From: Candidatus Gastranaerophilales bacterium
Lineage (GTDB): Bacteria; Cyanobacteriota; Vampirovibrionia; Gastranaerophilales; Gastranaerophilaceae
Reading direction: 5' to 3'
Assembly: GCA_944322755.1 (NCBI GenBank)
Contig: CALUPY010000003.1
Location: forward strand, 1 to 64,000
Length of the DNA stretch: 64,000 bases
Shown: in pieces, positions 28,485 through 52,919 of the stretch
Layout: every line of letters starts with the position of its first letter
Position numbering within the stretch: position 1 is the first letter of the stretch
Position numbers and translations under genes: made by a program
Notes under the pieces: generated by a model
What the model saw: only the letters and a program-made list of their open reading frames with translations
Told to the model about the DNA's origin: nothing
Database searches by the model: none

Positions 28485-28599
28485 CTGTCCTCACTCCCTT
28501 GTTCGCTTTTAATTTATATTAACCGAAACATTTTTTTAAATCAATTTGTTAATAATAATTATTTAAAATCTTAAAAAAAGCTTGCGAGATATTTTCCGT

Positions 28600-28700
28600 T
28601 ATGATAGTATGATAACTAACGTGATAACATTTCATACAACCAAATCACTTCCAATATCACTTAATTATACAAACGGCTGCTTTTTTTGCAGTCTTTTTTT
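28600..28700 (+). ncRNA. Candidate sRNA with G-free segment (I)
   Basis: A plus-strand unit opposite to both flanking genes. TATGAT-like -10 sequences lie at 28600-28613. From 28624 to 28674 (51 nt) the plus strand has no G at all and is A/C/U-rich, with tracts such as caaccaaatcacttcc. A terminator follows at once (GGCTGC/GCAGTC stem, T8). The same arrangement, with 52 nt without G, is found at 51375-51426. Single-stranded C/U-rich tracts could pair with Shine-Dalgarno sequences. No ORF with an SD is inside. The rest of the 300-bp gap is AT-rich and holds nothing else I can name. Confidence 0.5.
28675..28700 (+). terminator. Intrinsic terminator of candidate sRNA I
   Basis: GGCTGC, loop of seven T, GCAGTC (one wobble), then TTTTTTTT. 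Confidence 0.75.
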
Positions 28701-28784
28701 TATCACCAAATTTCTGATTCTTAATTAAAAAGCGCACGACTAACAAAGGCAAAACAGACACAAAACTACTTATAAAAAATTTAT

Positions 28785-50871: not shown

Positions 50872-51255
50872 CTATGCCAAATCTCTTGGCAAAAACTTGT
50901 CTATTTCTATTATAGTTCCGCTTAGTTCATTATTCCTGAACATAAGAAGAAAATCAAGGAGTTTGTCATTCGGAACATTGTAACTGTACAACGAAACACC
51001 CCCGTTTTTCTCACGCATAACTTTCACTATATACCTGCAGTCTTTTGCATAGTCCAGCAGATTTTCTTCCTTAAAAGGATAGCCGTTTACGTCCTTATCC
51101 AGCCTTACATAGCTGAATCCGGCAAAAGATTTTACTCTTTCTTTTAAATCGGCGTGTTTGTTACTGTTATGCTTTTTAAAAATGTTTATTACTTTATTGC
51201 TGATTTCATCTGTCATAACACCATTAAACCCTGTATTCACAAGATTGTCTAACAT
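50872..51255 (-). CDS. Small 127-aa protein, unrecognised
   Basis: Begins MLDNLVNTGFNGVMTDEI at 51255; an inner ATG at 51216 is an alternative, and neither has a clear SD. Alpha/beta composition with FAGFSYVRLDKDVNGYPF and a C-terminal NELSGTIIEIDKFLPRDL. No homologue recognised. It precedes the radical SAM gene by 45 bp in the same direction. Confidence 0.65.
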   Translation of the reverse strand: MLDNLVNTGFNGVMTDEISNKVINIFKKHNSNKHADLKERVKSFAGFSYVRLDKDVNGYPFKEENLLDYAKDCRYIVKVMREKNGGVSLYSYNVPNDKLLDFLLMFRNNELSGTIIEIDKFLPRDLA

Positions 51256-51316
51256 TTTACAAAACTGTAATATTACGAATTGTAACGAATAAAAAAAAAT
51301 GCGCAATTTTAAACCC

Positions 51317-51346
51317 AATATATACTTTATATATATGTAAGACATA
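51317..51346 (+). promoter_or_regulatory. TATA-rich shared element before candidate sRNA II
   Basis: AATATATACTTTATATATAT followed by GTAAGACATAAA. Same consensus as 40179-40215 and 41761-41790, on the plus strand. Confidence 0.5.
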
Positions 51347-51459
51347 AATAATTAAATCCTTTAAATAAGATGAGACTTTCACACTAACTAACCTACCTAA
51401 CTTCCTAACCTTCCCTTCCTATTAAAGTATTGCTCCGAAATGAATCGGGGCTTTTTTTT
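51342..51459 (+). ncRNA. Candidate sRNA with G-free segment (II)
   Basis: Downstream of the TATA element, the plus strand has no G from 51375 to 51426 (52 nt: cacactaactaacctacctaa and similar), then a terminator. The expected RNA is about 115 nt. It lies about 100 bp before bioA but is cut off from it by the terminator, so it is either a stand-alone RNA or an attenuated leader. Its CU-rich tracts (aaccttcccttcct) could pair with purine-rich ribosome binding sites. Same plan as 28600-28700. Confidence 0.5.
51432..51459 (+). terminator. Intrinsic terminator of candidate sRNA II
   Basis: GCTCCGA and TCGGGGC form a 7-bp stem with one wobble, followed by eight T. Confidence 0.8.
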
Positions 51460-51560
51460 GCTCTGTTTATCCCTTGATACCAGCGGTTTTGAAACACTTA
51501 TGATAGTAAGAAATTTATTTTTGGTGTAACATTGTAGGGCAGAATTTTGGGGAGTGCAAA

Positions 51561-52919
51561 ATGAACAGCAAAGATGAGTGGATTGAAAAAGATTTAAAAT
51601 ACGTATGGCACCCTGATACGCAGATGAAACAGTATGAAGGGGCAGATTTTAAGCCTGTTTTAATCGAACGGGGAAAGGGAATATACCTGTATGATTCTGA
51701 TGGAAACCGTTATATAGACGGAGTTTCCTCGTGGTGGGTAAACACACTCGGCCACTCAAATCCTAGGCTTAACAAAGTTCTTACGCAACAGGCTGAAAAA
51801 ATAGAACATGTGCTGCTTGCCGATTTTACGCACAAACCTGCAGTTGAACTGGCGCAGCGACTTATAGAACTTGCAGGAGAGCCTTTCTCTAAAGTATTCT
51901 ACTCTGATGACGGCTCGACAGCAGTGGAAGTTGCAATAAAAATGGCATACCAGTACTGGTATCAAAAGGGCAAACCCGAAAAAAAGCACTTTGTTTCAAT
52001 GACAGAGTCATATCACGGGGACACGCTCGGGTCTGTGTCTGTCGGAGGTATTGATATTTATAAGAAAATATTCAGCCCGCTTGTGTTCGAAACGCTCAAA
52101 GTTTCAGCCCCATACTGCTACAGATGCCCGAAATGCTGCACTCAAGGCGATTGCGCTCTTGAGTGTTTTTCAGAAGTCGAAGAGCTTTTTGAAAAAAGGC
52201 ACAATGAAATTGCGGCAATGATTGTGGAGCCGCTTGTTCAGGGTGCGGCAGGCATGAGAGTTTACCCATGTGAATACTTAACAAGACTGCGCAAACTGTG
52301 TGACAAATACGATATTTTACTTATAGATGACGAAGTTGCAATGGCTTTTGGCAGAACCGGAAAATATTTCGCCTTTGAGCATGCCGGAATAAAACCTGAT
52401 ATATTCTGCGTTGCAAAAGGTATAACAGCCGGATACATACCACTTGCGGCAACAATCACTACTGACAAAATATACAATGCTTTTTATGACGAATTTTCTT
52501 CTCTGAAAACGTTCTATCACGGGCACAGCTTTACGGGGAACCCCGTGGCGTGCGCAATTGCCGTCGAAAACCTAAAAATTATGCAGGAAGAAAGAATAGT
52601 AGAAAATCTGACTCCGAAAATAAATAAACTCAAAAGCTGTCTTGAAAAATTTAAAGCGCTTGAACATGCCGGAGATATCCGTCATATCGGGATGATAGGC
52701 GCTATAGAGCTCGTAAAGAATAAGAAAACCAGAGAGCCTTATCCGTTTACAGACAGAACCGGCCACAGAGTTTTTAAATCCGCATTGAAAAAAGGAGCAG
52801 TTCTCCGTCCGATAGGGAATGTAATATACTTTATGCCGCCGCTTATTATAACGGAGGAAGAGATTGAAGAACTGACTGATATTGCTTTTTCCGCAATTAA
52901 AGAAGTCACGGAGGGCTGA
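51561..52919 (+). CDS. bioA: Adenosylmethionine-8-amino-7-oxononanoate aminotransferase
   Basis: A 452-aa class III PLP aminotransferase of biotin synthesis, making 7,8-diaminopelargonate with SAM as amino donor. BioA marks: YVWHPDTQMKQYE (family HPYTQM), DGVSSWWVNTLGH, ESYHGDTLGSVSVGG, the PLP aspartate in LIDDEVAMAFGRTG and Lys in CVAKGITAGYIPLAA. No other bio genes in the window. The start has SD GGGGAGTG upstream. Confidence 0.93.
   Translation: MNSKDEWIEKDLKYVWHPDTQMKQYEGADFKPVLIERGKGIYLYDSDGNRYIDGVSSWWVNTLGHSNPRLNKVLTQQAEKIEHVLLADFTHKPAVELAQRLIELAGEPFSKVFYSDDGSTAVEVAIKMAYQYWYQKGKPEKKHFVSMTESYHGDTLGSVSVGGIDIYKKIFSPLVFETLKVSAPYCYRCPKCCTQGDCALECFSEVEELFEKRHNEIAAMIVEPLVQGAAGMRVYPCEYLTRLRKLCDKYDILLIDDEVAMAFGRTGKYFAFEHAGIKPDIFCVAKGITAGYIPLAATITTDKIYNAFYDEFSSLKTFYHGHSFTGNPVACAIAVENLKIMQEERIVENLTPKINKLKSCLEKFKALEHAGDIRHIGMIGAIELVKNKKTREPYPFTDRTGHRVFKSALKKGAVLRPIGNVIYFMPPLIITEEEIEELTDIAFSAIKEVTEG

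Follow-up and report, generated by a model that had tools for sequence, protein, structure and literature searches.

The Gastranaerophilales are non-photosynthetic gut relatives of cyanobacteria. In one member of this order, to which the relatives of its bioA assign it (genome G000; 2.19 Mb, 43 contigs, 99.97% complete), we analysed a stretch of 64 kb, here called the window, in which a run of nucleotides without G lies between a TATA-rich element and an intrinsic terminator, a short distance upstream of a bioA-like gene. Does this arrangement represent one of a family of small RNAs (sRNAs), as the preliminary description had proposed, or a leader that attenuates bioA, and what could such an RNA be controlled by and act on? 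On balance, we favour a stand-alone, trans-acting sRNA of ~120 nt that would belong to an RpaB-type regulon and mask G-rich ribosome-binding sites, a combined reading that we hold to be reasonably likely.

A terminated tract with a promoter of its own

The tract on the forward strand (51375-51426, +) was confirmed by sequence count as exactly 52 nt with zero G and 19 C, and it is free of G in 21 of 21 close homologues. The intrinsic terminator (51432-51459, +) consists of the stem GCTCCGAAATGAATCGGGGC at 51432-51451 and a run of eight T at 51452-51459; it is as had been described, except that it does not adjoin the tract immediately, as 5 nt (GTATT) lie between the tract and the stem. In an alignment of 55 distinct sequences that was fitted to the stem, compensatory changes occur at seven of the seven pairs, with 98% of cells paired and a covariation score of 0.58 vs 0.21 in shuffles, while an unfitted alignment of 15 sequences has 94.7% paired and compensatory changes at two pairs. 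No stable fold was found in the 5′ part outside the terminator (z = −0.6). The TATA-rich, promoter-like element noted earlier is also real as far as conservation can tell, with a mean identity of 98% over 20 homologous promoters: it corresponds to TATATACTTTATATATATGTAAG (51319-51341, +), which from its sequence is the −10 region of a sigma70-like promoter, with TTTATA at 51326-51331. A −35-like element, GCAATT (51303-51308, +), recognized by sequence and conservation, stands 17 nt before TTTATA, and the transcription start is predicted at ~51338-51341. The gene, at ~51338-51459 (+), would produce an RNA of ~120 nt in which a mostly unstructured 5′ part with the G-free, C/U-rich tract is followed by the terminator.

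This is almost certainly a genuine sRNA gene, as judged from its sequence and conservation. Its own promoter and terminator, the lack of a conserved open reading frame, and a conservation apart from the neighbouring genes are those of an independent sRNA gene with intrinsic termination. We regard it as stand-alone because it is conserved through the order, has a fixed promoter and a co-varying terminator, exists in a second copy, and does not depend on a downstream gene.

Runs without G are more frequent in the window than expected from a first-order Markov model, both for runs of at least 44 nt (6 vs 1.6 expected, both strands) and for those of at least 49 nt (3 vs 0.5, both strands). A terminator-like hairpin follows only two of the six runs on both strands of the window, those at 28624-28674 and 51375-51426. 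These two had been taken for kin, for which we found neither homology, nor a common promoter, nor shared conservation. The run at 28624-28674 has no homologue in its three congeners, each of which lacks it at the syntenic position; it is without the sRNA promoter and reaches E = 0.59 with the family model vs 5e-13 for 51375-51459. The larger unit around it (28540-28725), a species-specific G-free run with a terminator behind TATGATAGTATGAT and likewise syntenically absent from the three congeners, is perhaps a young RNA gene, perhaps a product of chance.

Distribution and copies of the sRNA family

A DNA search with 51240-51480 recovered a second copy on another contig of the same genome, 86% identical (C4:91114-91285, minus), in which the sRNA itself (copy b) is at C4:91116-91200 (minus), as well as homologues, often two per genome, in further species of both the genus and the family. 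Covariance model R1 had matches in 78 of 286 sampled Gastranaerophilales genomes and model R2 in 117 of 386 genomes of the phylum (both at E <= 0.01). With homologues through the order and copy b, the proposed family of sRNAs stands, minus the unit at 28624 as a member. All R2 matches among those listed fall inside the Gastranaerophilales, and because the lineages of the matchless genomes were listed in part only, a confinement of the family to this order is likely rather than proven. Weak covariance matches can be considered real because the same promoter and a similarly placed HLR1-like repeat (described below) precede them: among the 20 weak-match loci fetched, ACTTTATATA or a one-base variant is found upstream in 19, and the best HLR1-like match is at the standard distance in 16.

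Matching genomes usually have one to three copies, up to four matches at E <= 0.01 in a single genome, and two copies are usual in genera g1, g6, g17, and g20. Genome G041, from another family, has a tandem duplicate of the sRNA gene with ~460 bp between the copies (L130:235-816), and in G046 two copies are also close to each other. Zero Rfam families matched at the gathering score or at E up to 5, the best being GcvB with 19.2 bits vs the 42 needed, and a search of the literature on the Gastranaerophilales did not yield an sRNA description. The sRNA is thus a previously uncatalogued family, although of a known kind.

The C/U core and its possible mode of action

The A-rich 5′ part of the RNA (51342-51374, +) varies in length, with 31-61 nt in the close homologues reaching that far, and the C/U core CTTCCTAACCTTCCCTTCCTA (51401-51421, +) is almost invariant (alignment A3). 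Mean identities in the 21-copy alignment are 98% for TATATACTTTATATATATGTAAG and 97% for the core columns; poorly kept are the linker (71%, and of variable length), the promoter spacer (52%), and the downstream DNA (49%). TTCC occurs on average 2.75 times per tract vs 0.50 times in shuffled tracts. Since several genera (g7, g11, g14, and others) have GAGAGA in the 5′ part, yet keep ATTCCTATTCCTACCTTCCTA or a similar core, the absence of G is not itself the property under conservation; judging by these sequences, what the genera share is the core with its repeated UUCC(U)A. The core is presumed to be the part that binds targets or a protein.

The RNA has the unpaired C/U-rich motif typical of C-rich sRNAs that pair with Shine-Dalgarno sequences. 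By analogy, the single-stranded CUUCC/UUCCUA core would pair with the G-rich ribosome-binding sites of several mRNAs, the translation of which would then be blocked, and the two-component system would thereby gain a post-transcriptional repressing arm. We give antisense action at ribosome-binding sites about an even chance. Start regions pair better than coding DNA (−7.5 vs −5.5 kcal/mol). When the native core was compared against the 54 start regions of the window, 157 of 200 shuffled cores were as good by mean duplex energy, and strong sites complementary to the core were not enriched in the genome (17 vs 27 for a reversed control pattern). Within this scope, a single strong-site pattern in a single genome and the 54 starts of the window, complementary targets were neither conserved nor enriched. 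The best match at a ribosome-binding site, AGGAAGGGAAGAT-ATG at C4:65931, precedes the gene of a lineage-specific protein and is not preserved in the compared homologues, congener G003 among them; it was rejected as a strong single target because the site is not conserved. Hfq was not found in the genome with Pfam model PF17209, which also misses Synechococcus elongatus.

A less probable but serious rival to antisense action is a protein-binding decoy, in which the UUCC(U)A repeats would titrate an RNA-binding protein in the manner of the GGA repeats of CsrB/RsmZ-type RNAs and no antisense target would exist. Such a decoy would fit the presence of UUCC two to four times in each RNA, several-fold above the number in shuffled tracts, the retention of the motif while its flanks vary, and the failure to find a conserved mRNA target. 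It fits less well with the near-invariant order of the 21-nt core, beyond the motif, across numerous genera of the main family, and a candidate protein was not identified.

We also observed, at L206:1-1500 (minus), a gene for a large lineage-specific protein of ~1000 aa (MRIEQFQTVNNDTKYK...); relatives are encoded by 22 of 60 family genomes, frequently several in one genome.

An HLR1-type repeat and RpaB as the candidate regulator

The site of the response regulator RpaB, HLR1, has been defined as KTTACAWW-N2-KTTACAWW (PMC13421787; PMC11633204). Upstream of the sRNA promoter lies a direct repeat, AATATTAC-GA-ATTGTAAC (51269-51286, +), of the type of its reverse complement, and the consensus of the upstream repeats, (A/T)(A/T)TGTAA(A/C)-N2-(A/T)(A/T)TGTAA(A/C), is the exact reverse complement of HLR1. 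The window copy agrees at 14 of 16 positions, with a degenerate first and a perfect second half, and copy b at 16 of 16. In 49 of 52 promoter rows, one locus being counted in two of them, the best HLR1-type match starts 56-57 nt before CTTTATA, and 30 rows are perfect (16/16); shuffled upstream DNA reached a score of 15 in 2 and a score of 16 in 0 of 400 trials. The repeat is placed at ~ −69 to −52, close to where cyanobacterial RpaB acts as an activator (−66 to −45). Genome-wide, with up to one mismatch allowed, HLR1-type sites number 73 vs 32 for the reversed pattern.

RpaB itself is encoded at L170:1486-2244 (minus), with 368.9 bits for NF045944 vs the NCBIfam equivalog cut-off of 330, and the genome therefore combines the two sequence marks of an HLR1 regulon, a site at activating distance and the regulator. 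RpaB probably controls the sRNA: from the DNA, we infer that an RpaB-type response regulator would bind the repeat just upstream of −50 and activate transcription. It is rather unlikely that the element is instead the site of another regulator of the OmpR family. The genome does encode three full-length OmpR-type regulators, of which the two besides L170 match the RpaB models below the cut-off (score 210), and WalR-like boxes are similar to HLR1; however, the repeat equals HLR1 in its period of 10 and in its consensus, and only L170 exceeds the equivalog cut-off for RpaB.

Homologues of RpaB and NblS were noted in 2013 in non-photosynthetic Melainabacteria, with the comment that their role there must differ (PMC3787301). 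Under RpaB control, an sRNA with fixed HLR1-type sites would be a concrete output of the RpaB/NblS system in non-photosynthetic bacteria. The sites suggest that the specificity of RpaB is common to photosynthetic and non-photosynthetic lineages, and the sRNA promoter offers a testable handle on the role of a “light” regulator in gut bacteria that live in the dark.

Repeats of this type also occur elsewhere in the genome. At loci L174, L176, L180, L182, L184, L186, and L187 of G000 (positions 1501-1650), FliA/sigma28-like promoters (CTAAAG-N14/15-GCCGAT/GCCGAC or similar) follow perfect HLR1-type repeats at a constant distance of 15-16 nt, mostly ahead of small lineage-specific proteins; they form a second class of promoter that shares the site. 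The sRNA-type promoter element precedes lineage-specific protein genes at L093, L094, L095, L096, and L177, with 54-aa and 96-aa proteins, an EF-hand-like protein, and others as products; its presence at both the sRNA and these protein genes suggests one regulon. Near-identical HLR1 and promoter sequences at the ends of contigs C24 and C38 (L183 and L188) probably belong to a repeated gene split by the assembly.

Comparison with known regulatory RNAs

PsrR1 of Synechocystis, an sRNA from the same phylum, is likewise linked in its transcription to an RpaB/HLR1 site, and it forms a feed-forward loop with RpaB (PMC13421787). The Gastranaerophilales sRNA differs from it in the placement of HLR1 near the activating range (~ −69 to −52) and in its host, which appears to lack the photosystem mRNAs that would be PsrR1-like targets (PMC3787301); homology to PsrR1 is not indicated by any Rfam match at the gathering score or at E up to 5, so far as Rfam includes PsrR1. 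LhrC1-5 of Listeria monocytogenes is also an sRNA present in several copies, contains repeats of a single-stranded CU-rich motif, and is switched on by a two-component system via an element upstream of −53 (PMC4132741), but LhrC carries its UCCC motifs in the loops of stem-loops, whereas the repeats of the Gastranaerophilales are in one open tract and their host is not a Firmicute. FsrA, RoxS, CsfG, and RsaE similarly have an unpaired C-rich tract able to pair with Shine-Dalgarno sequences, followed by a terminator (PMC8216469; PMC4132741); there, the C-rich box is located in a hairpin loop, while the motif here is CUUCC/UUCCUA, and homology was not found. In its anatomy, with an open C/U-rich tract, a terminator, and a promoter of two-component type, the RNA agrees with C-rich sRNAs such as LhrC and FsrA/RoxS, and in its candidate regulator with PsrR1; it most likely works in this way, which does not prove membership.

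Tentatively, the order-wide sRNA family may serve as the post-transcriptional arm of an RpaB regulon, one that is either older than photosynthesis or exists without it. If so, the link of RpaB with an sRNA, as known from PsrR1, would be a circuit that is ancient or has evolved repeatedly, and here it would control genes for the envelope, motility, or secreted proteins rather than photosystems.

Genomic neighbours and coding potential

The bioA-like aminotransferase gene (51561-52919, +) is the downstream neighbour and lies outside the sRNA. That the element is a biotin-responsive attenuating leader of this gene, as had been considered, is very improbable. In the window, bioA does start ~100 nt past the terminator on the same strand, and the same order recurs in L036, but in the fetched flanks of 31 other Gastranaerophilales bioA loci the element is present at only four, once upstream on the same strand (1/31), once upstream on the opposite strand, and twice downstream. 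Moreover, copy b is located elsewhere without bioA, and the syntenic copy in G002 and G003 adjoins a radical-SAM/hypothetical gene pair, in G003 at ~7 kb from bioA. We conclude that bioA is an incidental neighbour of the sRNA; a separate bioA promoter is possible inside the 100-nt gap. A weak match at the bioA locus L028 (E = 0.078) was rejected, as both a matching promoter and the core are missing. A small mRNA that encodes a short peptide is hardly credible either: although an ATG is present at 51370 (ATG AGA CTT TCA CAC TAA) and the frame continues for 17 codons in G003, the frame, its length, and the start codon vary among homologues (L041 and L043 have ACGAG, g52 has none), in contrast to the constant nucleotide core, and the coding reading was rejected on these grounds.

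As for the stand-alone sRNA, its copies have neighbours of their own. In G000, G002, and G003, copy a (the one in the window) is divergent from the radical-SAM/hypothetical gene pair. Within the genus, copy b is divergent from the gene of a conserved protein (MNITRL...), and g6 has a 25-29% identical relative on the same side.
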